From a virus: DNA of 42,697 bases. The translations under genes and the position numbers were made by a program. Location: IMG/VR virus record IMGVR_UViG_3300021365_002616, positions 1-42,697 of that record. One strand, given 5' to 3'. Numbering within the stretch: the first letter of the stretch is position 1; each line of letters begins with the position of its first letter. This document shows positions 6,201-34,339 of this stretch, piece after piece. The notes beneath the pieces were generated by a model, which was not told the origin of the DNA, ran no database searches, and worked only from the letters and a program-made list of their open reading frames with translations.

Positions 6201-7450
6201 TCTGCAGCACGGATACCCGAGGTAGGTTCCGGACTAAGAAGGCCTGACGGGTCTGGGGGAGTATATATTCCAGTGTAGAAGCCATACCTATTGTCTACGA
6301 CTAAGCTATCATAAAGCAGACGAGTGTCTAAGGCATCTTGGTCTTGTACTGATTGAAGTATTTCAGCGAATGCAACTACAAACTCGGCATAAAATGTTCC
6401 CGACAAACTGGTTGGTGATTTATCAGGGTATGTCGCGCGATAATTAGAAAGTTGAGTCAATACGCCTGTTTTGTTACTCGAAGCATTTATAATAGCTTCT
6501 AAATTTTTAATGTTTGTATCTAGACTTGTGTCAGCTTCACGCGAAGCGTTGTGCATTTCTATTAAAGCTTCAATATCTGTTTTGATATTATCAAAAGAAT
6601 AGTTGTCAGTAGTGTAAAATTTGCCGTTAGTGGATTGTAAAACTTCGTCGAAGTACGGTGTACCATCAGGTCTAACATAAGCTTGGAAAAACTTTGTTGC
6701 TATTCTGTTTTTGTCTAAAACATGATAATATGATATATCACTAAAGTAAGAGTTAGAACTCAATTTTTCTAAGATGTGCGAAAGGTGCGCGGCGTCCGAA
6801 GAAGTAGTGTAGTCTAATTCACTGAATCTTTCGCTAAACAGTCCGTCATCTGTGCGTTCTGAAGGTGGGCCGGTGAATGGGCCAGACGCTTCAATTCCTG
6901 TGTAGGTGAAAAACATCAAATTTTCTATTTCGTGAAGATTGGGTATTTCAAATTCACCAAAGGCATCGGTGTTCATTTTTACTTTTATGTTATTAATTTG
7001 TACGATTTCGTTGCCGGCGTCGTCAAAATTGGGGCCGACGTGTAAAATAGATTCATAAATATTGTCCGCGGATACAAGATCCATTAACGATATTTTTATG
7101 TAGCGGTTCTTTGGGTATTGATCAGGTGTTCGGTACATCCCGTATACGTGCCAAAACTCTAGAGATAATTCATTTTTATTTAAATGGTCCTTGATCCAAG
7201 GCTCGTAAGTCAAATACGCATATAGGTAAATATTACTTAAATGTCGCTCAACAAACTCTCTTGCCGTGCCTGATTGCATATAATCTGGTTTAGTGAGTTT
7301 TATTGTTAAAGTGGCCACTATTTCTGTGTGGGGGGTGCCAGCAGGATCCAGCGAGTCCAAGTAATTTAGAGTAATTCTGTCAACAAAAACATTAGGCATT
7401 TTAGTACCAAATTGTTCTTTAGTTATACCTGCTACATTAATACTAGACAT
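3287..7450 (-). CDS. Giant unrecognised structural protein (1387 aa)
   Basis: A 1387-residue open frame begins at ATG 7450, overlapping the upstream stop by one base (TAATG). An AGGA lies about seven bases before it. No signal peptide, membrane segment or enzyme motif is visible. The composition (many Tyr, Asp, Ser, Thr, Asn, few Cys) is typical of phage tail or baseplate proteins. The N-terminus (about residues 15-60) looks like a beta-rich start, residues about 290-345 contain heptad-like helices, and residues about 1020-1070 are encoded by an unusually GC-rich DNA patch (4255-4380). It lies downstream of gp25, gp6 and the gp7-like gene, where T4 encodes peripheral wedge and pin proteins (gp8 to gp12). 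It may therefore be a peripheral baseplate or fibre-attachment protein. No homologue was recognised. Confidence 0.88.
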   Translation of the reverse strand: MSSINVAGITKEQFGTKMPNVFVDRITLNYLDSLDPAGTPHTEIVATLTIKLTKPDYMQSGTAREFVERHLSNIYLYAYLTYEPWIKDHLNKNELSLEFWHVYGMYRTPDQYPKNRYIKISLMDLVSADNIYESILHVGPNFDDAGNEIVQINNIKVKMNTDAFGEFEIPNLHEIENLMFFTYTGIEASGPFTGPPSERTDDGLFSERFSELDYTTSSDAAHLSHILEKLSSNSYFSDISYYHVLDKNRIATKFFQAYVRPDGTPYFDEVLQSTNGKFYTTDNYSFDNIKTDIEALIEMHNASREADTSLDTNIKNLEAIINASSNKTGVLTQLSNYRATYPDKSPTSLSGTFYAEFVVAFAEILQSVQDQDALDTRLLYDSLVVDNRYGFYTGIYTPPDPSGLLSPEPTSGIRAADVVRGVPYTSPSACYIPNKWMQLARKAFMTDSITSYTDEQLADLYGISSDGAGTFREGFADESETLDRLLDELQAKYVSEGFTTVQARYMAHEELAFEFDTSDRSSVSTGRYTHSYGRTRSELLNPTLNGPATGADSYVDLRSGDALVYNHGTFLFDYEKALRTQSMIAHVFDLEKLQKLFRINIPYENFFVTKVELSRNELRLDATDIASFHDKFLRTKLELSMVTPSVMHTDPAPELEYVDYPKNSINKFKYLGGKDSGEAGSEAEIYAERSKYLRPGFFIGGSSKASTLKFVNWDLARTESARLTNVNNLDDVVENKKLDFEFLEGTDRRYLRVYDGYRLMCFSFFDVMDDDVAYYNTIEVDDEERSTLIETSNNLGERKTCYSITIEVEDQTQLSYDNFVSYIVDVYNSFSEYYGYANDICSFNNITNEFNQFFIDQIEEIFPDSDIWVTAAYLANALGELLFGVTGTEIDTDVFNEKVQETVIKISPRTGNLFQLTAFADQFKAVIDYIVINDLETSSGVGVGTGIATPFNRMKEVFPSDDGEDIGKRKLQFYNEKPIWEPISGDVTPDDIILEDTSVDLSYNALPEFTIPIGTIEAINFTADHDFGPLGGLSIAEAGSYSEDALVRDSVTGAGVIGGELYPDWYGAYESISDFLSSTDSREGVSAYETVSNAAKVVELVYFPSTGPGGPGARMMLSYYHLDSYATSTGLGFFGESETLGEFRDVIVGQLKSKAFFGVKPEGDVTEDAFEAAAPTMAAYWLNKIMKYTTIDVDVDGFPHNANISDPARQFGRLRPGIPEVISGTDSSDANDQIAKRRSYRTVIRCLAVLERLRIAHWRAFSTPGPEEVAGYTSVKFYSAEYRHFNNFFSYYSSAGTDEDFVFDLRNHLMSRSYWTTHELRRILSNVASSALSGDTETALGILESYGLSDFMNPDDPYGPLTGTLGSSKLEHDFSTIEITSLLSEIS

Positions 7451-9258
7451 TATTCATCCTCGCATATATCAGTTTCTGGCAACAATGCCCCAAGGTCAGA
7501 TGAGCCCGGGATTGGCGGGTTGCAGACCTCTGGGCTTGTTGCTGAACCGTATATATCATAATAAACTCTTTTTAAATCCTCTTCAGCACAGTCAAAATCG
7601 ATGTCGATATAATATGAATCTCTATTGAATGTGCTAGCACAACTACAAGCAATTTTACCACTTACATCGCTATCTGTTAAGACATTAAAGTAATATTCAA
7701 CGGAATCTTCGGTTATATTTGGGTTTTTAACTTCTTGTTCTGTCGATGCAATCATTAGACCATCTACAATCTGCTCTATTGAATCGACAAAGTATTTTCT
7801 TTTTAGTTCTACACCACTGGCAATATAGCCACCTGAGAACCCAGTGGGATTGATTCTTGCTTCAGCAGCGGTGCTGGTGATTGTCTTATTAACATCAACA
7901 GCGCGACTAGTTATCTGATTTGTTAGCCTGATTTGGAAAGCTCCCCCTGAAAAAGCGTGCGCAGCTACATCACCAATTTGACTTTCATCGATGCTAATTT
8001 GCAGTTCATGCGTCCCAGTGTAACACCCTACACCGTAAGTAGCTCTACAGCGGCCTTTAGCGATATCGCCAGCATCTGATTTGTTATAGTCAGAGGGATA
8101 TCCTCTAGTGGTTGAACCATCGTCTTGATTTAGGGCAGACAACAGGTTAAGAATGGTTCCTTTTCTGTTAGCACTGGAGCCACCTAGAAAATAATTGTTT
8201 GATACTACTATGCCAATATTACCAGCAGAGGGCGCCGAAACTGGATCTGTGTTGTCAATAAACTGAAATGTCTGGGACCGTACGCCATCATTAATAGTGA
8301 TTGTATCGCCTACTGCTATAGGCGAAGCCCCTACATCTAAAGTAGCGCTGGCTTTAGTAACTATACCAGTATCTTCAATTATTTCAAAAACTTCAATATC
8401 AAAGTTTTCGGTAAGCAACTGTGTGTTGACTTCTTCGGCATACACCATTACATCATTTTTTATTAATTTAATTGTTGAGCCATCTAAGAATGGTGAAGTC
8501 TCACTAATAAAATCTGAAGGCGATTCTTCTGTAAGGAACTCAGAAGGTTTACTAATCTCCAAGGTGTAGTTTGCTTTTATATCAACTTGGGGAATGTTAA
8601 ATTCTACTACTTCATTATCAAATTCTGCTGATGTGTTATTGTATCTTGTAATGTCTTTAGTTTCCACATTGGTGATTTCACCTTGGCAAGTCAAAAGTTT
8701 CCAAGCTGGCGCATGTTGCGTGTTTTTTCCTTCAAATGCAGCATCACCGATTGCAGATTCAAACGACAAAACATTTGGTTTTGGTACGAATTTTTTTGGT
8801 ACGATGTCTAGGTCGAACAGAGAAGTTGAATCACGAACGTACTTATATCCAGCGCTGCTGAAAACATAATCGGTGAAAATTCCTTCGGCTGAGTCATATC
8901 CCATATATGAACCCAGTACTGGGACGAGGGGCTCAAGTTCGCCGGCCGTTATTACAACACCATCGGGTCTTATAACAGCTTCATCGTAAGTTTCTCCCAC
9001 CCATTCGCTTTCTGGGACTGTATTTTCAGCTTCCTCAAACAGCAAAATGCCTTCGATAAATTGTGTTTCAGTTTTTATTCTTTCATGAATTTTGGTTTGT
9101 ACTTCAGTAAATCCGGCATACTCGCTGTCATAAGTGATACCAGTGTCGAAGAAAGCATAATATGCCGGCTTCAACTGCCCCACAGAAAGACGGTGCTTGC
9201 CATAAGGTGTTAATTGAAAATCTATAACTTGTTCTTTTTTATCTAAAAATTTAGCCAT
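7450..9258 (-). CDS. Virion structural protein candidate, Cys-bearing C-terminus (602 aa)
   Basis: This protein opens with MAKFLDKKEQVIDFQLTPYG, followed by a segment about a 'YAFFDTGITYD' stretch and a helix (about residues 55-75). From memory, similar N-termini occur in marine myophage structural proteins, but I could not search for them. Residues about 310-470 form a glycine/serine-rich insert that looks like a beta-sandwich, with GDTITINDGVRSQTFQF near its start. Cysteines are scarce in the first half but appear in the insert and near the C-terminus (CSC, FDC, VCNPP, ICEDE), an uneven distribution. Start and stop both use TAATG overlaps with neighbours. It probably sits in the baseplate or tail next to the giant gp7-like protein. 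The exact role is unknown. Confidence 0.85.
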   Translation of the reverse strand: MAKFLDKKEQVIDFQLTPYGKHRLSVGQLKPAYYAFFDTGITYDSEYAGFTEVQTKIHERIKTETQFIEGILLFEEAENTVPESEWVGETYDEAVIRPDGVVITAGELEPLVPVLGSYMGYDSAEGIFTDYVFSSAGYKYVRDSTSLFDLDIVPKKFVPKPNVLSFESAIGDAAFEGKNTQHAPAWKLLTCQGEITNVETKDITRYNNTSAEFDNEVVEFNIPQVDIKANYTLEISKPSEFLTEESPSDFISETSPFLDGSTIKLIKNDVMVYAEEVNTQLLTENFDIEVFEIIEDTGIVTKASATLDVGASPIAVGDTITINDGVRSQTFQFIDNTDPVSAPSAGNIGIVVSNNYFLGGSSANRKGTILNLLSALNQDDGSTTRGYPSDYNKSDAGDIAKGRCRATYGVGCYTGTHELQISIDESQIGDVAAHAFSGGAFQIRLTNQITSRAVDVNKTITSTAAEARINPTGFSGGYIASGVELKRKYFVDSIEQIVDGLMIASTEQEVKNPNITEDSVEYYFNVLTDSDVSGKIACSCASTFNRDSYYIDIDFDCAEEDLKRVYYDIYGSATSPEVCNPPIPGSSDLGALLPETDICEDE

Positions 9259-12200
9259 TATTCATCTTTAAGTAATATATTTACGTCCATTTTAATTAGT
9301 TCAACGAAAGATAAGTAATCATAAGGCCAATTAAAGCCAAAGTTGTATTTTTTCAAATCAGTAGTCTCTTGTTTTACTTGTCTTGTTGATTCATTTGCTT
9401 GGTCGGGAATGAGATCATAATAGTCCGTTACGGCCCTTTGTTTCACCTTAAACACCATCCATCTCAGGTTATCGTTCATCAGTACTTTTTCATTGATTAA
9501 TTCGTTATTTGCTATATTGTGTGCGACTGATGCCTCTTGGAAGTGAACTTCTTTTGAATCTCTGGGGGCAAGGTTTTGCCAAATGTACGAAAGGTCATCG
9601 CGATCAAATTCGTATTTAAATTCGAACACGTACATTGCAATTGGATCTACTTCTTTATTGTTCAAGAAATCAAATTCAGGCGGGAATACATATTTTTCCA
9701 TTGATTGTTTTAATCTTCTTAAAGACTCACCAGCGGTGTTTAAGCTGTCGCCCTGTGCTGAGCCAGCCTCTTGTTTACGCGTAGCGCCAAATCTTCTTTT
9801 GGGTATTGAAATAAATTTCTTTCTTGTCTTTCTCAACTTAGAGTCTTTTGGTAGCTTTTCCCTGAGACTTTCATTAATCTCCTCTATAACATACGGTATT
9901 GCTACAACTGCCTCATGTACTGCAAAGCTTTCTTTTAATTGGCCAAGTTTGGCGCTTGAGTTAGTTTGGTCAAACCCACAAAGTGAAGATAGTGAGCGAA
10001 CATGCTTGTAAAGATTTAGTCTTCTTTCATTTTGCTGAGACGGAGTAACTCCTGTATCAGCATTATTAGCGCTGATTGCATTGCCGTTATACGGCGTTTC
10101 TCTGTCTCCAGCCAGGACTTCATAGTGATTCCTCAACCAGTCCTCTGGAATGTCTGTAATCTCCAGGAAAACGCCTTTATTGGGGTCATCTGGGATAACA
10201 CCGAACTGATGCCACATTCCTCTTGGGACAGACGCCGATCCATAAGTTGGAAGAGTTAGGGTGTTGTTTTGCGCACTGATGCCATGTATTCCTTCATCAT
10301 TGAAGTTGAGCATCGGTGTCTCCCATTTAGGTTGAATGATCCATTTATTACCAACTGGATTGTTGGAATTTTTAATAACTTGACCAAATTTATCAGTTTC
10401 TTGTTGAAGAACCTTTTCGGTACCAAAGATTTTAATACTAGAAGTTAGCTGCATTGAGTTAACATTAATCCTCTTGCCATCGTAGATTGATGGAACTGTA
10501 CGATCACCACGTGGGCCGGTGCCGTTCATAGAATCCGTATTATGTTGTGTTTGCTCTACCGGAATCAAAACAGGGATTGAGGCGGTTAGGGCACTAGCAC
10601 CGATTTGCCTAGGCTCACCGGCGTCAAATCGCCAGCAAACAACTTCTGTTTCATTTAAAATTCTGTTTAGATCATACTTTTCAGGCGTGGCAGTAGTAGC
10701 TTGTAGCTTATCAACAACATGTGGTCTGAAAATTAAATCAGCCCAAGCCTCACCATCATAATATGGCGGTGTAAATGCTGGATTGTATCCACTAAAGCTA
10801 TCTTTTGCTGCAAACTGAAACGCTCCAGAGAGTGCATTTGAGCCTGTTGGTCGACCCGCGCACGAAGGACCGAATGCTGTAGGTCTACTGTACATAGTAA
10901 ACGTTTCTTTGAACAAAGGATTATATTGAGGATCTTGCGGTAACGAGTATTGACCAACGGACTGAGTTCCGTTAATAGTTCTTTTTGCACCATTCACAGC
11001 GTAGAAGCTAAGTGCCCCTTTCGAACTATACGAATCATATTCATTTTCATAAGAGCGCGCGCCGTTGTGAGATCTGCGCAGCTTAATTCTAGCCATATAT
11101 AGGGGGCGACTGTTGGCGAAATTACTATCTTTGGCAAACTGGATGTCGTCTAAGACGGTGTTTGACTCCAATCTAGTAATACCTGCATCCTGAAGGAAGA
11201 ATTCTCCACAAGCACCAAAGAAGTTACGCGCCATTAGTGTGTAAATCCCATCAGCGTTATCAGTGAAGGAGGCGCTGGCAGCTTCTCTTTCAAAAGCAGC
11301 ATCAACTCCCTCGTCAGCAAACTGCCACTTCCAATCTACGCTCATAGATGGATGTGATTCCATATCGGTAAAGACAGTATTAAGAATGTATTTTCTTGGC
11401 TCGACAATAGCTTCGAAGGGAATTCTTTTATCCCAGCAGTGTCCACCAAGATATTGATTACCGCCCGAAACTGCCAAGTCAATCGTGCCGGCACCAGTTA
11501 TAGAGAGAGCCCAGTTGTTCGTTGATTGGCTAACTTGTGTGCCATAAAATCTTCTCAATTTTTTTCTATGGTTCGAAACAACTGGATAATCCACTGCGAT
11601 ACCGGATTTTATCGAGTTATATAAAATTCCAGGTGAGACTATCGGATCTAAAAGCAGTTTCATAAAACCACCAGCTCGATCATAAATTGTAGCCGGCCCA
11701 CCAAAAGATTTATTTGTGAAGGTCTGCACTCCACCTCCGCCACCGGAACCGGAAAGTCCTACAACAACTGCATCCTTGAATGAATCAGTAAACTGCGCAG
11801 CCAAATCTATTGTTCGATCAGCCGGGTAAAAACCTTTATATGGGTTGTATTTAATCGCAGCATTGCAACTTAATTGTATTTCTTTTGCGTTCAGTAAGCT
11901 ATCTCTCTTGACGCCCAAGAAGTTTTCAAGAAAATCAGAATTAGAATAATCTATGTAGAAATTATCATTAGCGCTGGATGAGTTTGTACCTACAATTTCA
12001 AACAAATCTGTTTTAGACTTGTTGTTGATTCCAAACTTAAAATAATCTTTAACATGTTCACTCATTCTATACTCTGGCACCACCGCATAGCCTTTCGCCA
12101 TTAATTTTAAATCGCTCTTAAAATCATCGTAATTGTTGTACCATGGGAGTGACGCGGAGGGCAAGAATACAGACGAAGATATAGCACTGAAGAAAGAGCC

Positions 12201-15200
12201 CGAAGTGGACTGATTCGCCAATTGTGCCACGATACCTGCTTGGGTGCCGGCTTCCCACTCAGCTTCGCCGGCAAAAGTATCAATTTGATGCGCAGCAGTA
12301 AACATTCCAGTCCAAGAACCAGTTTCTGGAATTCTCACACCCGCGGGGGAGACGACTGACTTTGGAGAACCAAGCTCATGTTTTCTAGCGTATAATGGTG
12401 CTGGAGTTACCAATGCAAATTTAGAGCCGTCATTGGCAATATTGAAGTAACTAAAATATGTGTTCTGTAATGTTCCTGCGGCAGGTACATTGAAGTTGAA
12501 GGCGATTGCGCCGCTTAAAGGTATGAATGGTTTGCGACTAAAGTAATCTGCTGGAATTGCATTATACTGAGAGCTACCTGTCGTGCCGCTAATAAAGGTT
12601 CGAGTCAAGAAGTTCGCAGGAGCATCAAGCGGCCAACAACTTTTGCTAACTGGGAAGCCGACGAGAGCAGTGCGTAGGGTGTTACCTACAGTGCCTCTTT
12701 CAGTTCTTGAATCACGCCAAAATTTATTATCATAGCCGACGCGCTTACTCGAAAACGCCCCAAATTCATTTTTCAATGATGGGAATAGGTTTTGTTTGTA
12801 TAAAAACCAATTTAGAGTTGCATCGTCGCTGCGGGCCACCCTCACAGCATCGCGATAAGGTTCGTTTACCAAATCGTAATCAAGCTCAAAATAGTTGTTA
12901 AGTTTTAAATCGTTGAAGAATATCTTCTCATTTGTGTTGGTGAACTTGAGGGTTACATTCTCTCTTGTGCCGCCATCTGGACCAGCTGTTGCTAAGTCAA
13001 AGTTTATGTAAGATAGGCGACCTTTCATTGATAAAGGTCTTAATTCATGAGTTGATAATTCTCGGCTACTTCCAGTTGCAATAACTAATCTATTAGCTCT
13101 ACGATCGTTTATCAACATTTTGTTATTTTGTTGGTGGAATTTTCTCCACGTCCATCCGTATTTTGCTTTACGTGATGTTAAAAGTTGATTTAAATAGTTT
13201 GGATTTGCAGAGGTAATGCCGGTAAGATCCCGGTTAGTGTAGTTTAAAACATCTACACTGCTTGGGAACCCAAGTGTATGACTACTGGCGGTTATTGGAT
13301 CATTTATAATAATGTTCAGTTCTGTTGATGGTTGAAAAAGGCCATTAACGGTGGCATCTGAAGCACTAATGAATGTCCAGTAATATTCTATACCTGCTGA
13401 AGACGTTCTAAATGCATTATATGCTTCACCTCTATCCACATTTTGATAACCAGCATATTTTATATCACCAACATTCAACACCGAGCTGGAGAACCACTGA
13501 TACTGTCTATCCGATGCCGGTATTGGCCTTTGCACGAATGCATTATCGAATCGAGAGCTTGTGATAAACGCTGAATTGTTTTCATTAGACGCTTTTATTA
13601 TTTGCTTTCTGTTTCTGTTAATTTTGTGGAATGAAGGAAGCTCTTCGTAGGAGGCTCCTGGGTTTGCAACAAACAAAGAATCTCTACCAAACCTAGCTGA
13701 GTGACGTGCAAGATGTGAGCGCAGCCCATAATCTTTATTGTGAATATCGGAAACTTGAATGTTTGTTGCTCCGCCGGCAACAACTGGTTCGGATATAGTG
13801 CCACTAGGGCCTTGCTGCGGTTTTATTACCGTTTGGTTCCTAAATGAAAGTGCGTTATATGGCGTCATCTCCGTTGATTTAAAATCAAGATAACCCTTTG
13901 TCATGACTTCAATGCCGCCAGGAGCAGCAAATCTGGTAGTTACAATAGTCTTGTTAACTGTGCCAGTGAGATAGGCAGTGCTGTAATCTCCAACAAGATC
14001 AACGTGAGAGTTTGCAGTTCTTTTAATGTCGTAAATGCTTCTTACATTAGTAGTAAATTTAACATCTGCAACTTGTGGTGGCAATGTGGGTTGACTGTCT
14101 AAGAATGCGCGGGCATTATGGAAGGCACCAAAAGAACTGACGACCTCATATTGCTCTTGGAAGTTGCCTGGTACAGTTTTATTATTCTGAATTGTGTTAA
14201 CGTTTCTAATATTTACAGGCCTTTTTGCAATGTGATCTCTGTATAGGTAAGCTTTGCCATGGTGTGGGTACGGGTAGGGCACAGTGCCTGCGGGTGGATT
14301 GTAGTTTGCCGGTGGGTAGTCTGGACCAACAACACCAATCGCGCCTGACGGAACGATGTCGCAAGTGCCAAGCAAAATTCTCCAAGCTTCTGGACGATTG
14401 TTTTGTTGATCTGTGCCAGCATTAATATCTATGTGTCGGGATTGATGACCACCTACAAGATGATTAGTGAATGGACCCTGCATTGGCACTTCCGCGTGAT
14501 CGCCATAAACGTCGTTATGAACATTGGTTATCATCAAGCTGTTAGTTACTGCTGAGACTACTTCCGCATTATAGCCAGAGTTCACCTCAACGCTAGCGCT
14601 GTATACGTTGAACGGAAACGCCATACCAGACTTGACATTTTTGTATCCCAAACCAGATTCCCAATCGCGGCCGGTCTGCACTTTAAATGTTTTCTTTTTC
14701 TTGGTGATAACGTCGCTTGGCTTAGTAGCATTTCTGAACACTGGAATCTCAGTAGCGTCACTTACAAATCCTACCATAACATTTAGTGGGACAATTTTGC
14801 CGCCTTCGTGGTTTATTGGGCCGCCGGGTTTGGTAATAGAGGCTGCGAAATCAAAGTTCTTGACGCTCTCAAAGTTTGTTCCACCGCGAATGTCACGAGT
14901 TAACATTCTAGAATTATTCAAATTCCTTCCGTAATTCGTATCTTGAATTTCTACATTCAAGCTCATTGGAGCTGCTTTTGTTTTTCTAAAAAATTTGGTT
15001 TGTTGATATGCTGTTCCGTCAGTCTCTCTTAATGTCGGAGGAGAGGTTGCGCCAGAAACTGCTGGTACTGAATATATGACATCCCTGAATTTGTTTCTTT
15101 GCGCATCAATAATTGCATCGCCGGATGTAATTTCTTCAGAGCTACGATCAGCACGTTTTTTCCAAAAAGTAAGATGTGTTGTGGTAGATCTAGGGCTGCG

Positions 15201-18200
15201 TTTTTTAGGAGTACTGCTATCGACATAATCCCCGTCATCGCCAGCATCTCCAGGATCGCCGGTGTCTGAAAGAATCGTGGAGCCAACCGGGAATATTCTT
15301 TCAAGACTAAATTTATCCCCGTCAAAAATTCCTAATCTGTTTTGATATTTGTTTCTCTCTAGAACATGACTCTCAACAACATTTTGAATGTCGTTTATAT
15401 ATTCTGAAGATGCTGGTACCAATTGGGATATAATCGTTGTGATCGCGTCGTCAAACCATTTGTAATACTCGGCGTATTTTTCAACTTCAGTTATTTTGTT
15501 AACTCTACGGAAAAAGATTTGTCTAAGTTTTTCTATTTCTTTGTATCTGTGTCTGTAATAGTTAACGGGGTGGCCAATAATGTTATGAAAGTCAATAACA
15601 CCCGCAAAGAAGTCTAACATTTCTTGTGAAATTGCTTCGTATAAACTTTTTTCTAGAGAATAAACAAAATTTGGCAATATCTCTTCTCTTCTTAGGTTCG
15701 GACTAAGGTCATCTTCGTCAGTAAAAATCTGAATCATATCCGATGATACTGGTCTTTCCGGGTCGGTGAATCTGTAGCTGTTCAATCTTTTCTTGTTAAT
15801 TATTTTGCTTGAAGAAGCCTCGAAGCCTTCGCCAAAACCGGTATAATATTGTCCGGAGATTTTTCCAACCCAATTAAAGTCATCTCTGTCTGTGACCGAA
15901 CCCGAGCTAAAGTCTTGAACAGTAAAGTTGCCTGAAGAATCAGAACTTGTTACATTTCCAAAATTCCAATTAAGAGCTAAAGTATCATGACCTAAAGCTT
16001 CAGTATAAATATTTGAACCATCTAGTCCACTTAGAGATTGAATAGAACCAGAAAGACCAATGTTTTCTAGATCAAGTGCGTGTTGCTGTAAATCACAATC
16101 TTCAAGGTATTTGGTCCAGAATGCAACTGACGACATTAAAACATCGGAGTAGTGGTTAATCGCGCCTGTAACATTTACCTTATCTGCCCCAACATAAGCT
16201 CTCTTACCCGAAAGAACATATTTGTGACCAGCGGTTTGTGTAATTTGTGTACTAACCTTAAAAGAATTAAACAGATCTGTTGTTTTTGAATTATAGCCCG
16301 AGAAAATCAAATCATAGTTGTAGCTACCGGTTTTTGGCCACACAAAAGTATCAAGTGGGTAATTTTGCGGCTTAACTCTTACCGATAAGTTCCACAATTC
16401 GTCGTTGTAAACATCATTAAAAATTGAACTGGTCAATGTGAGTGCAGTAGCACCGGGATTAGCCACAACTAACTTGAAGTAACCTGATTTTGATTGTAGT
16501 TCATCTCTGACAAAATATATTTTGAAATTACCATAATCTTGATCGCCACCGGTTGCGGTTGTGTCTGTACCAGCGGATGAGCTGACAATTGTTCCATCGG
16601 TTGTGACTGTACCAAACAGAGACATTTCAGTGTAATTGGGTCTAAGTCGTGTATCAGCCGTGTTCATAACATTGAATTCAGGAAAAACAACATTCGCTTC
16701 GTAAGTAAAGCCATAGCCAAATTGATTTGTACTACCGGTTAAACTACCAGCAACAACTGTCGAGTTAATCCCCGGCAAAAGATTCGCTGTTCGGGACCTC
16801 TGATAAACAACTCCATCACTATTGGCTTGTTTGCTAAAGTTAATGCAGTTTTTCTTTATTAAGTTTAATTCCAAGTTATTTTTAAGAACTATTTCTGCAT
16901 TATTGGAATTAACCTTTAATCTAAGAAGCTTCTCATCAACGTTGAAACATTTGAGAACATTTTTAATTGCTTGTTCTGTACCTTTCGCTTTATAAATCTC
17001 TGTTAAGTTATTATAAAGATTTTGGTAAATCATGTTTTTAGCTTCGTTCAAATCATTTTCAAAAACAACTTTGTCTGAACGATTCATAAATTTTTCTAAG
17101 ATACTTGAATCAATGAATATTTCTGGGGAGTACAGGCCCAAGGATTGCGGCAAGTGTTCAGCGAAAGGTATAGCTTTAAATGTTCCACTTGTGTGCGTTT
17201 GATGTCTAAGTTTTGGTATTTCAGAAATTTGTAAATACAGTTTATCAAAATAAGCTCCCATGATATGGGTTATATATCTCAAATCCGTGTTTTCATTTTC
17301 ATCGTCTTCTTGCACAATCCAACTTGGTACTAAATTTAGTACGGATGAATTATTTTGATAATCGTAAAATGTACCACTATTTAACAGTCTACTCTGCAAA
17401 TTAACATAATCTGGGTGATTTGTTCTGATAATTGGATCTAAAAACTCTTTTGTAGCTGCAGAGGCAGAAACAATAGCAGAGCCTGTGTTTCTTGCCGCGG
17501 CTGTGTATCCTGTCCAGGTTCCATTTGTAACACGGCCGGCATAATCAAGCACGATGCTGTCGGTAGCTGTTTGGCCTGTGATTCCCTCATTGAACTTATA
17601 ATATACCCCAAGTGTGGTGTTAGAGATATCACTGTTATTTCCGCCGCGGACTTGTGTAAACCAATTGTTTCCAATCTCTTTTGAAGTTCTTGACGTTTTC
17701 CAGAATCTAAATTCGTCCAAAGAACCAGAAAGTTTACCGGCGCCGGCCGAACCGGTTCGTTCTGTTCCAGATGTAGCAGGGATAGAATTAGTGACAAGTG
17801 CACCGATTCTGCCAACCATACCTGGCTCATACAAAGCGCCTATAACTCCACCATAGTTGGTGGTGCTGTTCTTTTGTCCGTTAACATATAGAGAAGCGCT
17901 ACGAGCCGATAAAACGACAGCGTAGTGTGCCCAATCTCCAAACTGACTTGGAGCAAAATTGCCAAGTTGCATGTCTCTGATTATGCTAGAACCGGAAGCA
18001 ATACTAATTCGGAAGGGAGCAGTTGCATCGTGGGCGCCAGTTATTTCTAATGTTAATCGACCATACTTAGCACTAGAAGATAGTTCATTATTCCACATAT
18101 CAAAAACAACTTGTTTTTGCGTTGTAGCTTCGCCAACAGAACCGGTTTTCATCCAGAATTCTAATGTTACCCCATCAGTAAAATCGGATCTTAAGTTAGA

Positions 18201-18779
18201 CGTTCTTGTGCCACTGCCATAGGTTGATGGTAAGCCAGCTGTTGTATAAATCGATTCATCGTATATGTTTGAATAATTATATTTGCTGTCGTTTGGATCA
18301 AACATCAGATCTTTCAGCTTAGAGGTTGGGGCCGAGCCAGTACCTGGACCCCCTACAAAATCAATATATTCGCCTGTGGAGGGCAAAGCATATCCATTCT
18401 GCATTGCAGAAAGTGTGTAGCCGGTCTTGTTGAGTGAGATATAACCAGTTGTTCTTGGATAATCGTTATCTAAGACATACCTCTCAACATCAAGACAACC
18501 ATTTAAGAATTCGTTAATTTCAGCTTCTGAACCATCATACGGATAGTAATCTGTAATACGAGCTAACGCAGATTTGTAGTATAATCGTGCTGAGCCATAT
18601 TTAACAAAGTTTTCGGGCTTAGAATAGTCAACTTGAGGAACATATCTTTCTTGATCTGTCCTTCTGGCTTCAATGTTTCGAAACGATTCACCATCTTCGT
18701 TGAATAAATCTTTTGAGGATACATCGCTTACAAATTCTTGAATCTTATTGTTTGATTCAAAAAGTTTTTTAATACTCAT
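9258..18779 (-). CDS. Giant baseplate wedge candidate (gp7/gpI-like) with LamG lectin domain
   Basis: At 3173 residues this is the largest gene in the window. Residues about 160-425 look like a LamG/concanavalin A-like lectin domain (Laminin_G_3 type): GVTLEFWMKTG at 203-213, GDWAHYAVVLSARSASLYVNG at 281-301, LSGSLDEFRFWKTSRTSKEI at 350-369, and LGVYYKFNEG at 390-399. Residues about 440-615 resemble a tail-wedge core. A helix ending in YKAKGTEQAIKNVLKCF (from about 596) recalls the HRxKGT(x)xAI motif of P2 gpI, the partner of gpJ, which corresponds to T4 gp7. The gene lies after gp25 and gp6, in W-J-I order, with one gene between. The remaining 2500 residues are beta-rich and unassigned. T4 gp7 is about 1032 residues, so this would be a threefold expansion. 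The ATG overlaps the upstream stop by 11 bases. The LamG call is firm; the gp7 equivalence is inference. Confidence 0.85.
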   Translation of the reverse strand: MSIKKLFESNNKIQEFVSDVSSKDLFNEDGESFRNIEARRTDQERYVPQVDYSKPENFVKYGSARLYYKSALARITDYYPYDGSEAEINEFLNGCLDVERYVLDNDYPRTTGYISLNKTGYTLSAMQNGYALPSTGEYIDFVGGPGTGSAPTSKLKDLMFDPNDSKYNYSNIYDESIYTTAGLPSTYGSGTRTSNLRSDFTDGVTLEFWMKTGSVGEATTQKQVVFDMWNNELSSSAKYGRLTLEITGAHDATAPFRISIASGSSIIRDMQLGNFAPSQFGDWAHYAVVLSARSASLYVNGQKNSTTNYGGVIGALYEPGMVGRIGALVTNSIPATSGTERTGSAGAGKLSGSLDEFRFWKTSRTSKEIGNNWFTQVRGGNNSDISNTTLGVYYKFNEGITGQTATDSIVLDYAGRVTNGTWTGYTAAARNTGSAIVSASAATKEFLDPIIRTNHPDYVNLQSRLLNSGTFYDYQNNSSVLNLVPSWIVQEDDENENTDLRYITHIMGAYFDKLYLQISEIPKLRHQTHTSGTFKAIPFAEHLPQSLGLYSPEIFIDSSILEKFMNRSDKVVFENDLNEAKNMIYQNLYNNLTEIYKAKGTEQAIKNVLKCFNVDEKLLRLKVNSNNAEIVLKNNLELNLIKKNCINFSKQANSDGVVYQRSRTANLLPGINSTVVAGSLTGSTNQFGYGFTYEANVVFPEFNVMNTADTRLRPNYTEMSLFGTVTTDGTIVSSSAGTDTTATGGDQDYGNFKIYFVRDELQSKSGYFKLVVANPGATALTLTSSIFNDVYNDELWNLSVRVKPQNYPLDTFVWPKTGSYNYDLIFSGYNSKTTDLFNSFKVSTQITQTAGHKYVLSGKRAYVGADKVNVTGAINHYSDVLMSSVAFWTKYLEDCDLQQHALDLENIGLSGSIQSLSGLDGSNIYTEALGHDTLALNWNFGNVTSSDSSGNFTVQDFSSGSVTDRDDFNWVGKISGQYYTGFGEGFEASSSKIINKKRLNSYRFTDPERPVSSDMIQIFTDEDDLSPNLRREEILPNFVYSLEKSLYEAISQEMLDFFAGVIDFHNIIGHPVNYYRHRYKEIEKLRQIFFRRVNKITEVEKYAEYYKWFDDAITTIISQLVPASSEYINDIQNVVESHVLERNKYQNRLGIFDGDKFSLERIFPVGSTILSDTGDPGDAGDDGDYVDSSTPKKRSPRSTTTHLTFWKKRADRSSEEITSGDAIIDAQRNKFRDVIYSVPAVSGATSPPTLRETDGTAYQQTKFFRKTKAAPMSLNVEIQDTNYGRNLNNSRMLTRDIRGGTNFESVKNFDFAASITKPGGPINHEGGKIVPLNVMVGFVSDATEIPVFRNATKPSDVITKKKKTFKVQTGRDWESGLGYKNVKSGMAFPFNVYSASVEVNSGYNAEVVSAVTNSLMITNVHNDVYGDHAEVPMQGPFTNHLVGGHQSRHIDINAGTDQQNNRPEAWRILLGTCDIVPSGAIGVVGPDYPPANYNPPAGTVPYPYPHHGKAYLYRDHIAKRPVNIRNVNTIQNNKTVPGNFQEQYEVVSSFGAFHNARAFLDSQPTLPPQVADVKFTTNVRSIYDIKRTANSHVDLVGDYSTAYLTGTVNKTIVTTRFAAPGGIEVMTKGYLDFKSTEMTPYNALSFRNQTVIKPQQGPSGTISEPVVAGGATNIQVSDIHNKDYGLRSHLARHSARFGRDSLFVANPGASYEELPSFHKINRNRKQIIKASNENNSAFITSSRFDNAFVQRPIPASDRQYQWFSSSVLNVGDIKYAGYQNVDRGEAYNAFRTSSAGIEYYWTFISASDATVNGLFQPSTELNIIINDPITASSHTLGFPSSVDVLNYTNRDLTGITSANPNYLNQLLTSRKAKYGWTWRKFHQQNNKMLINDRRANRLVIATGSSRELSTHELRPLSMKGRLSYINFDLATAGPDGGTRENVTLKFTNTNEKIFFNDLKLNNYFELDYDLVNEPYRDAVRVARSDDATLNWFLYKQNLFPSLKNEFGAFSSKRVGYDNKFWRDSRTERGTVGNTLRTALVGFPVSKSCWPLDAPANFLTRTFISGTTGSSQYNAIPADYFSRKPFIPLSGAIAFNFNVPAAGTLQNTYFSYFNIANDGSKFALVTPAPLYARKHELGSPKSVVSPAGVRIPETGSWTGMFTAAHQIDTFAGEAEWEAGTQAGIVAQLANQSTSGSFFSAISSSVFLPSASLPWYNNYDDFKSDLKLMAKGYAVVPEYRMSEHVKDYFKFGINNKSKTDLFEIVGTNSSSANDNFYIDYSNSDFLENFLGVKRDSLLNAKEIQLSCNAAIKYNPYKGFYPADRTIDLAAQFTDSFKDAVVVGLSGSGGGGGVQTFTNKSFGGPATIYDRAGGFMKLLLDPIVSPGILYNSIKSGIAVDYPVVSNHRKKLRRFYGTQVSQSTNNWALSITGAGTIDLAVSGGNQYLGGHCWDKRIPFEAIVEPRKYILNTVFTDMESHPSMSVDWKWQFADEGVDAAFEREAASASFTDNADGIYTLMARNFFGACGEFFLQDAGITRLESNTVLDDIQFAKDSNFANSRPLYMARIKLRRSHNGARSYENEYDSYSSKGALSFYAVNGAKRTINGTQSVGQYSLPQDPQYNPLFKETFTMYSRPTAFGPSCAGRPTGSNALSGAFQFAAKDSFSGYNPAFTPPYYDGEAWADLIFRPHVVDKLQATTATPEKYDLNRILNETEVVCWRFDAGEPRQIGASALTASIPVLIPVEQTQHNTDSMNGTGPRGDRTVPSIYDGKRINVNSMQLTSSIKIFGTEKVLQQETDKFGQVIKNSNNPVGNKWIIQPKWETPMLNFNDEGIHGISAQNNTLTLPTYGSASVPRGMWHQFGVIPDDPNKGVFLEITDIPEDWLRNHYEVLAGDRETPYNGNAISANNADTGVTPSQQNERRLNLYKHVRSLSSLCGFDQTNSSAKLGQLKESFAVHEAVVAIPYVIEEINESLREKLPKDSKLRKTRKKFISIPKRRFGATRKQEAGSAQGDSLNTAGESLRRLKQSMEKYVFPPEFDFLNNKEVDPIAMYVFEFKYEFDRDDLSYIWQNLAPRDSKEVHFQEASVAHNIANNELINEKVLMNDNLRWMVFKVKQRAVTDYYDLIPDQANESTRQVKQETTDLKKYNFGFNWPYDYLSFVELIKMDVNILLKDE

Positions 18780-20304
18780 TGTTACTCACTCTAAACTTAA
18801 ATAATTCATTTTGTTCTTGCCAAGAACTAAGCTCTTCATCATAAAACGCCACTTTAAAGCCATACTCATAATCAGGTTGCAGCAGTTTCATATCGAAATC
18901 AAAGTAATTGCCAGAGACATCATAGGAAAGACCCGTGGCCAATAAACCGGAGCCGGTGTCATGCGAGACTACTTCTAGATTATCAAATATTCTAAGCACT
19001 CTGTATGATGCCGTTGGAATTGTTATTGTTGGCGCAGAGGCGACAGCTTTGGCGTATATTGTTGGGTTCCAGTTTTTCTCTCGAATGTAAACGTTAAACC
19101 TTGCTGTTTGATCTTGAGCATAGCTATTTTGAAGATTTGTGATGTTAATATAATATGTAGGCTCTCGGGCATGCACAGCGGTACCAAGAGAAACACTGTT
19201 GATTGTGCCAGTGTGAATTTGAGTTGTCCCAAGAGACCACACATCATTTAACACTGATAAATTTTCAACAACTTGTAATCTGGCTTTATATACGCCAGTT
19301 TCGATTTGAGTTGCCGTAATAGAGTCAGCATAGTTATTGCTAGAATCTTTAATTCTTAATCTCGTACTTGTAGGCTCGCCGGCAGAGCTGGAATAAATGC
19401 TGACTGTTAGTGCATCGCTAGATGGTATAGTTTTTAATCTTCCTCTAACGTAATTGTAAAAATAAATATCGTTTATGTTTTCCGTTGATGCCAGAGAACT
19501 GCTAATAAAGAATTGGCCGCGGTGGTCGCGACGTGTGGAATCCCACTTAGCTTGGATTAATGGCTTTTTGAAAAAGTATTGGGTACCGCGGGCAAAGAAA
19601 CGCTTAGTGTAATAAGATTTAGTTGCTCCATCTGGAATGTTCTGAGTTGGCTGATCTTGAGATGCTTTAACATTTTTTCCAAAACCCTTTGCTTCTTGAC
19701 TTGAAGTGAGCTTGATTCCCATGCCGTAATTGGCAACGCCCCCGCCATCGGCTCCGCGGATCCATCTCTCAACCATAGGAGTAATATCAAGATTTAAATT
19801 TTCAAAACCATTAGTAAATAACTGCTCGGCGCGATAATCCGCGGAGCTTGATAAGAAATCGCCTCCGCCAGATACAGAATTCCAAGAAGCAGTGGCAGAA
19901 GCACTCATCCAGTTACTACCTTCTGAGCCCTTAGTCAGGTCTCTGTACCCTTCGAGGTCTAGACCCACGCCTTCTTGCCAATCATTAAAAAGTGGATTAA
20001 CTACGAGTCTCATATTGTTTGGTACAGTCTTAGAAGTCTCGGCATCATAAAGATTTAAGTAAAAGTTAACGCTTCCGCTAGCAGGCAATTTTCCACTGGT
20101 TCTATCGCTAGCAATCTGATCGATTGGGAATTTAACCAAAACACGTGAAAGTTCTTGAGAAGATGTAGTTTGTCTACCATATACCGAGTAAACTTCTAAG
20201 ATATCTGCACGACCAGCATTTGAGCCGGTGGCCCTTGTGTTGAGATTTTCTTTAAAGGTATTAACAATCGTATTGTCAGCAGATGCAGTATAATTTCTAA
20301 TCAT
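18769..20304 (-). CDS. DNRLRE (CBM96)-like baseplate-associated protein
   Basis: The N-terminal 200 residues follow the pattern of DNRLRE/CBM96 beta-sandwich modules. They show a strand with VLVKFPID (about 55-62), SGSVNFYLNLYDAET (76-90), a W-containing NDWQEGVG (107-114), TASWNSVSGGGDF (138-150), then LDITPMVERWIRG (172-184) and NYGMGIKLT (192-200). Residues about 250-511 look like one or two Ig-like beta domains. This family is usually found in secreted carbohydrate-binding proteins. Its place between gp6 and the gp7-like gene suggests it decorates the baseplate wedge. The start overlaps the gp6 stop (TAATG) and its stop overlaps the next start by 11 bases. The family call is by pattern only, and a plain structural beta-sandwich is the alternative. 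Confidence 0.8.
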   Translation of the reverse strand: MIRNYTASADNTIVNTFKENLNTRATGSNAGRADILEVYSVYGRQTTSSQELSRVLVKFPIDQIASDRTSGKLPASGSVNFYLNLYDAETSKTVPNNMRLVVNPLFNDWQEGVGLDLEGYRDLTKGSEGSNWMSASATASWNSVSGGGDFLSSSADYRAEQLFTNGFENLNLDITPMVERWIRGADGGGVANYGMGIKLTSSQEAKGFGKNVKASQDQPTQNIPDGATKSYYTKRFFARGTQYFFKKPLIQAKWDSTRRDHRGQFFISSSLASTENINDIYFYNYVRGRLKTIPSSDALTVSIYSSSAGEPTSTRLRIKDSSNNYADSITATQIETGVYKARLQVVENLSVLNDVWSLGTTQIHTGTINSVSLGTAVHAREPTYYINITNLQNSYAQDQTARFNVYIREKNWNPTIYAKAVASAPTITIPTASYRVLRIFDNLEVVSHDTGSGLLATGLSYDVSGNYFDFDMKLLQPDYEYGFKVAFYDEELSSWQEQNELFKFRVSNNEY

Positions 20305-22097
20305 TATTTAGCTTTTCCTATGAAGTCCGTATTTTTGTACTTAAATTCTACAATCGCATTTTTTGGAATAATCAGTTGGTTACCATCAGGTGAGAGATTT
20401 TTGTTAATATTAATAGTTGCGCTTGAATAATTAGCACCGGTGCGGTTTAATAATCTAGCTTTAACGACATCCAGCACTCCCGGAACAGCATTTAGAGTTT
20501 TATATATGTCACTAATGACTACTGATTCACCAATATAATAATTGCTGCTAAATTCTTTCCCTAAAGCTTCAATACATCGACCAATAACTAATTTTTTATC
20601 CATACCGGGTGTTGTCTTGATACTAAACTCAATCCCTAAGTTAACAATGTATGGGTCAAGAATATCAATTGTATCATTAATCATTCTATATTGATTTAGC
20701 CAAACTTTTAAATTTCTTTTAATTGTTGAACTAGTTTTTTCTAATTTGCCAAATGAATTTTCTGAAACAACATACATATTCAAGTTTCTTTTCTGTGAGT
20801 CAGGATCTCTTTGTACAGAAACTCTTTTAACTGAACCAAACTTTGAATGCATTCTATAAGCTAAGTTCTCATAGTCTGCCTGTGTTACGGCACGATTCTG
20901 AGTCGGAAAGGTATCATAAATTCTTTGTTTAATTTCCTCAGATGTAGCGTTTCTAACGTCGCCAGTAATTGGCAACTCATTTTCAACTTCTAGTGAATTT
21001 ATAACTTGTTGCAACAAACCTTGTGATAAAGTGGTCTTGTCTTCGAAGTCCATATTTACTGAAGCAACTTCGTTAAGCTGTTTAGCGGCTATATTGGAAT
21101 TACCAGGATTTGTTACTCGCATGCTAATTGTCAAAGTTGTGTTTTCCGGCACGACTCCGAGCGCTTCATTTTCAGATAATCTTGTTGGGTCAAAAGACTT
21201 AGCAGTAACGTAAGTTTTACCAAACACATCCATTGATACGGATTGTGGATCTGCGGCGATATCACTGCTGCTCTCTTTTCCGCTACCAAATTGTAGTGAT
21301 ACTGTTGGACCACTTCTTTCCACTGTAAATTTTCTAGATACTAAAAACGGCTTTATAATCGAAGGTACATTATCATTTTTATAATTTGTGTTCGATATTT
21401 CTTTATAAATAATATCTTGCGCTAAGTAATCAACTTCATAATATTCGTTACCATCACTGTCGAGCACCGAGATTATTTCTGAAATGTTCGGAGTGTTTAG
21501 TCTAAGACGAGCAAACTTTTGGAAAGAACCAACAGTAACTTGCTCAGACATCATTTGTCCGGACACAACGCGGCCGTAAGCTTTTATAACGTAATTCGTA
21601 GGTGCACCTGCGGAGTTGGTTGTTCCAACGACTACAGGGTGCTTATTGTCGGCAAAATTAACATTCTCCATTAAAGTGTAAGCAAGTCCGGTTGAACTCT
21701 TGAAGACTGAGCCTCTTTTTAAAATTGGAGCGTAGTTTCTATTTACTCCTAAACCAACTGACGTTGCCGGTACCTGAACATAGAATGCTGCAATTCCGTA
21801 GGTTGATGGTCGGCCCGTGAATTTATAACCCAGGACGCGCCCGTGTCTAAGAATATTGTTGAATTGATATGCTGTATCAAGGAAAGACTCATTAACATTA
21901 TAATCCATATAAAAGGAAAGCTGATCCCCAACGTAAGCGACTGCATCCATCATCAAAGAAGCAAATGAAGCTTCGCTAAAATCTTGAAATGAATCAGGAT
22001 ATAATCTCTCGGCAATTTCTTGCAAGTCTTGCCTTATCGTTTCAAATTCTCGATTTGTATAATTAATTGGAATTATTTTCTTTTGATTATCAGCCAT
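20304..22097 (-). CDS. 6: Baseplate wedge protein, T4 gp6 / Baseplate_J family
   Basis: This 597-residue protein has the features of the gp6/gpJ wedge family. The N-terminus runs NYTNREFETIRQDL then FSEASFASLMMDAVAYVGDQ and YMDYNVNESFLDTA (about residues 13-80), a hallmark of T4-type gp6. Residues about 385-430 include the LAYRMHSKFGSVKRVSV stretch seen in Baseplate_J proteins after the TQADYE motif. The length is close to T4 gp6 (660). In T4, two gp6 chains clamp one gp7 to form the inner wedge core that triggers sheath contraction. The start has AGAGG seven bases upstream. It follows gp25 by 15 bp and overlaps the next gene by one base. Confidence in the family is high. Confidence 0.95.
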   Translation of the reverse strand: MADNQKKIIPINYTNREFETIRQDLQEIAERLYPDSFQDFSEASFASLMMDAVAYVGDQLSFYMDYNVNESFLDTAYQFNNILRHGRVLGYKFTGRPSTYGIAAFYVQVPATSVGLGVNRNYAPILKRGSVFKSSTGLAYTLMENVNFADNKHPVVVGTTNSAGAPTNYVIKAYGRVVSGQMMSEQVTVGSFQKFARLRLNTPNISEIISVLDSDGNEYYEVDYLAQDIIYKEISNTNYKNDNVPSIIKPFLVSRKFTVERSGPTVSLQFGSGKESSSDIAADPQSVSMDVFGKTYVTAKSFDPTRLSENEALGVVPENTTLTISMRVTNPGNSNIAAKQLNEVASVNMDFEDKTTLSQGLLQQVINSLEVENELPITGDVRNATSEEIKQRIYDTFPTQNRAVTQADYENLAYRMHSKFGSVKRVSVQRDPDSQKRNLNMYVVSENSFGKLEKTSSTIKRNLKVWLNQYRMINDTIDILDPYIVNLGIEFSIKTTPGMDKKLVIGRCIEALGKEFSSNYYIGESVVISDIYKTLNAVPGVLDVVKARLLNRTGANYSSATININKNLSPDGNQLIIPKNAIVEFKYKNTDFIGKAK

Positions 22098-22112: not shown

Positions 22113-22481
22113 TTAAATAGTAAATTGTAACAAATCTCTAATGTTTAAAGCAGGTATCGAATACTCTAAAGCTATCTGCAATGTGTTGTTATCTGGTGAT
22201 GAATTGTCGAAACCTACCCTGCTAACACTAACCACCGGTAAATATTTTAAAACTTGGTCTTTTATATCATTTTCAATTTGCGTATAAGTTGACTCACTAA
22301 AGTTTTGGAATAAATATGTTTGTATCCCAACGCCAAAGTCAGGCATCATTACTCTTTCACCAGGATTTGTCAAAATTAACATCTTTAAATTTTGTCTAAT
22401 TAAAGAATGAAAGTCGTCAATCATAGCGTAGCCATGGATGTCGCTTCTTGTAATTGGTAATTTTACGCCTAAAGTTGCCAT
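22113..22481 (-). CDS. 25: Baseplate wedge protein, GPW/gp25 family
   Basis: This 122-residue protein carries the family hallmark LILTNPGERVMMPDFGVGIQ at about residues 36-55, then QTYLFQNFSESTY and a C-terminal beta strand pair (LQIALEYSIP). The length matches T4 gp25 (132) and P2 gpW-like wedge proteins. The family has a lysozyme-like fold without enzymatic activity in the baseplate. It joins the gp6-gp7 heterotrimer to the tail tube and sheath start. It sits directly before gp6, the usual order. No clear Shine-Dalgarno is visible before the ATG, and a 58-bp AT-rich gap with a 7-bp inverted repeat precedes it. Confidence 0.95.
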   Translation of the reverse strand: MATLGVKLPITRSDIHGYAMIDDFHSLIRQNLKMLILTNPGERVMMPDFGVGIQTYLFQNFSESTYTQIENDIKDQVLKYLPVVSVSRVGFDNSSPDNNTLQIALEYSIPALNIRDLLQFTI

Positions 22482-22539: not shown

Positions 22540-25500
22540 TCATCCCAATAAATCTGGGCCGTCACACATTTCTCCGTCTGCATTGTAAGGGTTCGACTTA
22601 AGTCTTCTACGTTGCCACCATGGCAAGATACCGGCGCCTGGCGCAGGGAATAACCTTGCTTTCAAGTTTCTTAACTTAATAAGAGAAGGGCTCTTTCCGC
22701 TTTTCTTGCCCGGGCGATCTTGAGCAGCATAATATAAAGGCTTGAACATACTTTTAATTCTTGATCTAGAGTTCCTCAACAGCTCTCGATCCCATTCATC
22801 CCAGTGCAGAGTGAACGGTGTTAACGAAGGCCTATCTTTTGGATGCATCCAGCCTTCGTTTCCAGTAACAAATGAACCTTGAGCTAATTGCTGTACGTTT
22901 TCAAATACAATATCATCATCGTACCACCACGGTAAGCCGTATGCATCTCTAATATCGTCGGTCATAGTGACTCTTACTTCACCAACTTTTTGGTTAATAT
23001 AAGCTCTAGAGCCGGGTTTGGATTTTACTGCTTTAAGGTTCGTGGGATTGTCACTATCACTTCCTCCCCAGTCTCCTTTTAGTGTTTGATCAGCAACTGG
23101 AAGACCGAGGCCTTTGAGTAATGCCCCCATTATACCACCGAAGCCCTTGTTTGTAACTAACAGAGAACCAAAGTTATCACCGGTACCGACCGTTACTTCA
23201 CCGACACTAGCTAAAAACCCATAATCATTATAAATTGCCAACGTGCCAAGAACTTTCTTCATTGAAAAAATGTAACTGGTAAACATCTTGTATTTTGGAT
23301 CGTGTTTCAGGTTTTGAACCAAACAGTGCAAAAGTTTGCTGTTTGGTTGAACTGTTTGAAACTGTGATGTTTGATAATCAAGTGCATCGACTTCAACGGA
23401 GGTCACGACAGTGCCTTGATAATAAAAGATGAGCCCATGTCTGACCCCAAGGTTACCTTCTATACCAACCTCAACACCGTATTTATTTTTAATCATCCTG
23501 AGAGTGCCAGGGTATATATCGGACAAAAAGCTGCTGCTGGGTTGTGCTAGGATCATACTCTTGGCAGTTTCATCATCATACTTAACGCCGTCAATTGATG
23601 TATATTTCTCAATCTTGAAGGGGCGATCGTCGGTGTAACTACCACCGCTTCCATAATGTGGAAAGTCTCCAATACCGACATTTTGTTTTGTAATTATCGG
23701 TTCAGCGCCCATTGCTATATTGTCGGTTGAGTCGCCTCCTTCTGGTTCTGTGGCGGTTCGGCCACCGGGCGCGGGAACTTCTTTAGTTAATTCGCCCGGG
23801 GGCTCTATCACCGTCTCTACTGTAGCTACTTTCACAATATCGCCAACCGGTACAAGTATATCGTGACCTTGACCTAAAATGTATAGCTCGCCTATATCAT
23901 GTTTAGCGCCTGCCATATAAATTTCGTTGCCATCGTCATCTAGGTGGATATGATAATATCCAATATATTCTTCGGAATATCCAGTGGCATCAGATTCATT
24001 ATTGTCAACTGCTACTCTAAATTGATTGCCGGCTGTAAAATACGGACCTGGGAATACTGAACCTTCTCCGAGTGGATCTGGATCAGCTTTAGATGGAACA
24101 TTGACAGGAACTTCAACAACTTTATCACTGCGATATTTAATTTCACTGTTAACACATTTATTCTCAAATAACCAGTAATCCAAATCATAGATTTTAGCTT
24201 GAAAGCCGGCCTTTTCCATAGCGCCGACAAACTTACTACCCATTTTTGTAAGCTCATGATTAATAAGCTCTTGCAAGAAAATCTTGGCTTCGTCTTCAAC
24301 CTCTTGAATTCCTTCGAAGTTTTTTCTTTCTCTGAAGTTTGCTAAAGTTTCAAAGAAGCCGGCGTCACCTGTCCACTTCTGCTCCCAAAGGCCCGGGACA
24401 GTTTGAGTACGCTTGTTTCCTTTTTCGTCTCTGTACTTTCGAGTGTCTTCTGATCTATAGGTAAATCTATAGTGTGTCTGTAGATCATTAATCGCATCTG
24501 AAGCACTTTGAATGTACCCTCCTTTAACCGGGGTTTCAACTGCTCCGGAGCTAACTAAGAAATCGTAGCATTCAACTGATTGCTCTAAGAAGGAATACCA
24601 GAATTCGTCATCCTTAAAGGGGTTGAAAAACTCCCAGAAAGCCGGCTGGGCATTCTTAAAATCTTCTTCCATTCTTTCGGCAAGATACGCAGAGTAAATT
24701 GTACTATAGTTATCTGGGAATTTTGGTTGTACTGTTGAAAACGTGCCGATTGCCTTCATAATATGAGTGCTGGCATAAATTCTAATGGCAGCTAAAATCA
24801 AAGTATACATTTGTATTTTTGCATACCTAGGCAAAATTCTATCAAAAGGTACCTGACGCTGACATTCAGTATCACTATAAAGCCTAGTATCTTCCTCTAG
24901 GCTTGGGTAATAATCCTCCAACATTTGCTTAATTTCATCAAAGTCTATAAGATTTTTACCGTGCGGCTTGCAAGCTGTATCTCCGGGGAAAAGTGCTTCG
25001 GTTATACCCCACCAACCTGCATAGTGCGGTTTCTTAACATACAATGGAGGATTGTTGAATGTACCACCATAAACCGTTGGATCTAAGACAATAACTCTTG
25101 CATTTTCGCCGTTTACATATTGATCATATGTCATACCTAATTGCATTTCTTCATCATCAAAACCTAGGACTTCTCCAATGAATGTTGAGCGAGAAATAGC
25201 ATCATATGGAATAAATTCGCCGTCCGGACCAAGTACACCATATTCAAACATACCGGGGGTAACTAAATCATGTGAGGCGCCGGTGCGCCACCCATATTCA
25301 TTCTCGCCAATCATTTTAGAAAAATCTTTGTAAAACTGCTGCATTGTCGAATCATATTTCTCTTTCAGCGCAGCAGATGGGCTTTGACCAAGTAAATCAG
25401 CTAGGGCGTATATTTGTGGCGGCATGCCTTTTACTTCAGTCAGTGTTGACAGATAGTTTGGAAAATCGTTTATATCTAATGCTTTCTCTTTGTTTTCATC

Positions 25501-34101: not shown

Positions 34102-34339
34102 TTTGTTCTCCTTTATTGTGTTTTTCAATATATGGTTTAACAAACCATTTAGCGTCACCTAATTTGTGACAGTGTACCCAATACCTAACCGTTCCATAAG
34201 GATCGTAAGGGTTGGTAACTTTTTGTTTTTTTACTACTGTGCCAGAACCGTAATCGCGGACAATATTAATATCGGAGTAAGTTTCATACCACTTAACTAG
34301 ATCACCTACTCTTATATCATTTTTATGTGACACTTGCAA
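34091..34339 (-). CDS. SH3-like small basic protein of unknown function (82 aa)
   Basis: The sequence DIRVGDLVKWYETY followed by GSGTVVKKQKVTNPYDPYG and YWVHCHKLGDAKWFV looks like a small five-strand SH3-like or Tudor-like barrel. In this fold 'VGDLVKW' starts the first strand. There is no ATG in frame. TTG 34339 has GGAG five bases upstream, and GTG 34333 has the same GGAG at eleven bases, so the start is ambiguous by two codons. It overlaps the epimerase stop by 11-17 bases and the next start by 11 bases. It is the junction gene between the sugar cassette and the late-regulation genes. Function unknown. Confidence 0.72.
   Translation of the reverse strand: MQVSHKNDIRVGDLVKWYETYSDINIVRDYGSGTVVKKQKVTNPYDPYGTVRYWVHCHKLGDAKWFVKPYIEKHNKGEQNET

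Follow-up and report, generated by a model that had tools for sequence, protein, structure and literature searches.

Studies of host recognition by contractile-tailed phages usually turn to tail fibres and spikes. In solved baseplates the wedge protein BW3 forms a heterotrimer with two copies of BW2 and serves as an attachment site for receptor-binding proteins (PMC10811340). BW3 proteins related to P2 gpI (PF09684, Tail_P2_I; TIGR02242), such as XM1 gp17 and pyocin PA0619, follow gp25/W and gp6/J in gene order; P2 gpI comprises 176 aa and XM1 gp17 only 242 residues (PMC10457771). Dit, a baseplate protein of siphophages, can carry inserted carbohydrate-binding domains, which promote adsorption (PMC10688798). 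According to the available part of a report on jumbo phages, Laminin G3 domains, the same domain family as the LamG domain described below, already occur in tail fibres and other virion components, and that part describes neither LamG in a wedge protein nor an exchange of cassettes (PMC7824862).

The window analysed here is an entire IMG/VR virus record of 42,697 bases, probably a fragment. It contains an ATG-initiated frame of 3173 codons with no internal stop on the minus strand, whose predicted product is referred to as P0001 (Table 1). The initial annotation had proposed a single gene of this length (leaving its strand unstated), a LamG domain near the N-terminus, a KGT...AIKNVL helix at about residues 599-609 and a W-J-I gene order with one inserted gene, and all of these features were recovered. 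Searches of the whole protein against PHROGs, Pfam and NCBIfam returned LamG as the sole family, and residues 1-2006 had no tblastn match among annotated phages.

Table 1. Features of the P0001 locus (coordinates in the window; residues refer to P0001).
Feature	Coordinates	Strand	Basis
gp25/W-like baseplate wedge protein	22113..22481	-	PF04965, E 1.8e-16
gp6/J-like baseplate wedge protein	20304..22097	-	phrog_6, E 2e-22
511-aa gene between J and the P0001 gene; position conserved	18769..20304	-	synteny in relatives
P0001, candidate BW3/gpI-type baseplate-wedge protein, 3173 aa	9258..18779	-	intact ORF; relatives in 56 loci
Conserved N-terminal part, residues 1-160	18300..18779	-	residues 51-100, mean identity 0.67 to relatives
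LamG-A, residues 160-425	17505..18302	-	PF13385, E 1.5e-11; 102/102 relatives
gpI-like helical region, residues 450-620	16920..17432	-	helices in AlphaFold model; homologous in Mel-JY01, immuto and huge phage
Invariant KGT motif and following helix, residues 599-609	16953..16985	-	alignments A1, A3, A4; in register with gpI and TIGR02242
LamG-B, second LamG/pentraxin-like fold, residues 640-1005	15765..16862	-	AlphaFold model; PDB matches, Z 17.3 to ~11
Conserved helical segment, residues 1040-1160	15300..15662	-	most conserved segment (0.62); homologous in cultured relatives
Variable linker, then conserved SPRxT...WxxRA motif, residues 1160-1215	15135..15302	-	sequence
C-terminal extension, residues 1216-3173	9261..15134	-	extra-LamG sites in relatives at ~1500, 1702, 1735, 2200, 2418
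Confidently predicted single body, residues 1974-3173	9261..12860	-	AlphaFold, pLDDT 77.6, pTM 0.84
602-aa gene, stop/start overlap with the P0001 gene; position conserved	7450..9258	-	synteny

As shown in Table 1, the P0001 gene lies downstream of gp25/W and gp6/J within the baseplate block, as do the BW3 genes of the gpI type. The inserted 511-aa gene, for which no family was found in PHROGs, Pfam or NCBIfam, separates it from J, and the 602-aa gene follows downstream. This order recurs in almost all relatives whose flanks are long enough.

Residues 599-601 of P0001 are KGT, followed by EQAIKNVL, and each of the three motif residues is invariant in alignments of 49, 16 and 35 sequences. Profile-profile comparison with hhalign aligned this helix in register to gpI and TIGR02242; the balanced 35-sequence profile matched 42 gpI/Tail_P2_I sequences with an E-value of 9.7e-5, a score of 35.0 and a probability of 58% (scores of 27.2 and 29.9 were obtained with the close family and with 133 sequences, respectively). 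The controls, namely 28 decoy profiles of neighbouring genes (at most 14.9), other P0001 windows (at most 21.3) and the reversed profile (11.8), place the relation of the KGT/RGT helix to gpI above the decoys. TIGR02242 was matched by 12 of the 35 relatives and every other family by at most one; long TIGR02242 relatives likewise have an N-terminal stretch, of approximately 450-510 residues, ahead of the motif. The alignment covers a short stretch of about 38 columns, and none of the sequences taken singly attains a curated cut-off. P0001 scores 11.8 bits against TIGR02242 (cut-off 51.85) and does not match PF09684, and is therefore not counted formally among the members of these two families. 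A second gpI-like gene was found in none of 11 long relatives (one match each, in records that may be incomplete), and no Tail_P2_I was found elsewhere in the genome of the seven relatives examined. These sequence comparisons indicate that the KGT region is weakly but specifically related to the P2 gpI/Tail_P2_I/TIGR02242 wedge family.

The proposal of a gp7/gpI-like wedge protein, for which profile and structure comparison with P2 gpI and T4 gp7 had been suggested, is supported for gpI, by gene order, the KGT motif, the hhalign match and the lack of another gpI in 11 long relatives, and not for gp7, to which no sequence link was found. T4 gp7 resembles P0001 in following gp6 in gene order and in being a BW3 enlarged by additional domains, whereas it has one third of the length, no KGT motif and no sequence match to P0001-family profiles; searches of PDB sequences with two gpI-region profiles (A3 and A4) yielded nothing credible and no gp7 chain. 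The AlphaFold model of residues 430-1629 has low confidence as a whole (mean pLDDT 60, pTM 0.41) but is good at residues 640-1005. Foldseek and VIA searches with this model returned mainly LamG-like folds, and the absence of BW3 proteins from lists filled in this way says nothing against BW3. Position and motif thus support the identification of P0001 as a probable gpI-type (BW3) wedge protein, which differs from P2 gpI in its length, in having two LamG folds and in its extension of 2000 residues.

P0001 relatives were encoded by all 63 candidate stretches of one scan (56 loci), so the reading of this gene is not a product of chance. A scan with the gpI-region pattern revealed at least 599 stretches, of which at least 528 were confirmed as P0001 relatives. 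Full-length relatives comprise 2968-4112 aa, and the family is a large one, of uncultured and apparently marine phages. The gpI-like (430-660) and helical (1040-1160) regions also match positional equivalents in unannotated proteins of Microcystis phage Mel-JY01 (WWT39511, 1336 aa) and Flavobacterium phage immuto (QQO92079, 1265 aa), and both regions are present in a 1404-aa frame of an uncultured 484-kb huge phage (LR756508). All three are encoded downstream of J, like P0001, and are without its C-terminal extension; LamG was searched for in the Mel-JY01 and immuto proteins and not detected. In addition, the protein of one relative (L057, 1118 aa) ends just past the helical region. The short equivalents and this end point indicate that residues 1-1160 make up a free-standing unit, similar in size to T4 gp7 (1032 aa), and that the remainder is an extension.

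Bacterial genome collections yielded relatives on three MAG contigs (two of Maricaulis and one of Flavobacteriales) and on a WOR-3 “chromosome”. These carriers were rejected as phage hosts, since all look like binned phage contigs. The 2.8-Mb WOR-3 sequence (L063, isolate bin77, accession no. CP070664.1) contains a P0001-type gene broken at an N run, with unrelated genes beside it, and is probably a chimeric scaffold stitched with N runs. The giant protein encoded after gp6 of Atu_ph07 was also rejected as a relative, as no P0001-family profile matched it credibly.

Several other genes of the window were inspected. A 2435-aa protein (22540-29847) without an assigned family is encoded upstream of gp25, and almost all relatives conserve it there. 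The region 32557-33300 shows a weak match to a late sigma factor (phrog_234, E 0.0019), and Mel-JY01, immuto and L057 carry relatives of this gene in a comparable position upstream of their baseplate genes. A cluster of genes for sugar metabolism (34323-42672) encodes a nucleotide-sugar epimerase (phrog_540), a phosphoheptose isomerase (phrog_1238), a HAD hydrolase (phrog_8468), a FabG-like reductase and a methyltransferase, and possibly constitutes a phage-borne nucleotide-sugar pathway.

The N-terminal LamG domain (LamG-A) matches PF13385 (Laminin_G_3) at residues 192-369 with 45.1 bits (cut-off 27.6), within a conserved block of approximately residues 160-425. It is present in every one of the 102 distinct relatives that include an N-terminus, and its mean pairwise identity (0.56) is close to that of the gpI region (0.57). 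Being as conserved as the gpI region and never lost, this copy is likely to have a structural role. The single LamG of the initial annotation has to be supplemented by a second one in the core, LamG-B, which was not detected by sequence profiles and is assigned to the LamG/pentraxin fold by the predicted structure only, with matches to fifty PDB entries. It is more likely that LamG-A and LamG-B are fixed parts of the rim, or that they bind a common ligand.

The relatives contain extra LamG copies at seven sites (near residues 307, 663, 1500, 1702, 1735, 2200 and 2418), with Pfam checks of three proteins. One or two such copies are found in 32 of the 44 relatives of at least 2700 aa; P0001 of the window itself has none. 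Differences between near-identical relatives concentrate in inserted cassettes. Two proteins (L051 and L055) are approximately 98-100% identical except at residues 721-953, where identity falls to 30-60%, and this stretch coincides with an extra LamG (762-956). L004 and L009 differ at residues 319-435, corresponding to a small domain inserted within LamG-A, while L015 differs from the otherwise near-identical L017 and L050 at residues 2441-2596 and 2721-2880 of the extension, two segments that are not LamG by the profile used. These differences come from metagenome contigs and might reflect errors of assembly, although the breaks run along domain edges.

A small, beta-rich-looking segment with the pattern ITI.DG..TFTL...INA was observed both in the 602-aa neighbour (residues ~300-470) and as the diverging insert within LamG-A (site 311) of L004, L009 and L053.

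The exchangeable extra cassettes are better candidates for host recognition than LamG-A. LamG folds can also have purely structural roles, and P0001 could be a BW3 protein in which every LamG copy either docks the real receptor-binding proteins or ties neighbouring wedges together, the cassettes following the docked fibre genes. Such an arrangement would agree with the docking of receptor-binding proteins on BW3 in solved baseplates (PMC10811340) and with the presence of LamG-A in all relatives, conserved like the gpI region and unlike a typical receptor-binding domain. The extra copies, however, vary freely in number and position, and one of them is strongly diverged between otherwise nearly identical proteins, which makes a structural role for all copies rather unlikely.

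The initial annotation had left some 2500 residues unexplained. These are now partly accounted for by LamG-B, the helical segment 1040-1160 and the C-terminal body (1974-3173). The body is a confidently predicted fold for which no resembling structure was found in the PDB (best Foldseek E-value 0.92, VIA Z 5.1); weak Foldseek rows hinting at a capsid-like beta-sandwich (E 0.92 and worse) were taken as noise. Seven viral predicted structures resemble it along the greater part of the chain (E 1e-34 to 1e-77); one is labelled as from an uncultured marine virus and none has a named function. Relatives of the body were found only among unnamed viral proteins.

The size of P0001, its lectin content, the weak gpI score and a C-terminal stretch of 1200 residues matching no solved protein could together suggest a giant adhesin, or a protein resembling a fibre, whose gene happens to adjoin those of the baseplate, with a chance likeness at the KGT motif and with the 511-aa gene, or another one, as the true gpI. 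This is hard to reconcile with a motif that is invariant across divergent subfamilies and scores far above decoys, or with the finding of no other gpI and the low scores of neighbouring-gene profiles against gpI, and we consider it quite improbable. A frameshift or assembly artefact is ruled out by the more than 20 full-length relatives that are intact.

The explanation that we consider probable, without regarding it as secure, is that P0001 is a BW3 wedge protein, in the gpI/gp7 position, carrying a LamG scaffold with cassettes that bind host sugars and are swapped to change specificity. According to this model, the P0001 gene would encode the third wedge protein of a contractile-tail baseplate, and its helical KGT region would pack with gp6/J and gp25 as the wedge core, as the motif, the gene order and solved baseplates suggest. 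Atop this core, (i) two constant LamG-type beta-sandwiches and (ii) the C-terminal extension of approximately 2000 residues would form a scaffold, whose loops take in further LamG cassettes. Extra cassettes situated at the baseplate rim may bind host-surface or capsular sugars, and their exchange by recombination may alter specificity. The place of P0001 in the virion, its binding of glycans and its effect on host range are thus predictions of the model.

By analogy, P0001 is best read as a putative “evolved” wedge protein, the contractile-tail counterpart of evolved Dit. In both cases domains of a sugar-binding type are inserted in a baseplate protein, in some members only. Evolved Dit differs in belonging to non-contractile tails, in the protein concerned and in its modules; moreover, the effect on adsorption was shown for Dit (PMC10688798), whereas for P0001 it would be a prediction. 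A more far-reaching version, in which BW3 itself recognises the host through exchangeable LamG domains, so that binding and wedge rearrangement occur in one chain across a large uncultured lineage, is a tentative and somewhat doubtful proposition.

P0001 is probably a core baseplate protein, encoded once per genome, reaching approximately 4100 aa in this family and combining constant with exchangeable lectin folds. The exchange at the level of cassettes is the most informative new fact about the family. The swappable LamG cassettes suggest that the baseplate itself has a part in host choice, and if they bind sugars, sequence alone could flag host-range differences among uncultured phages.
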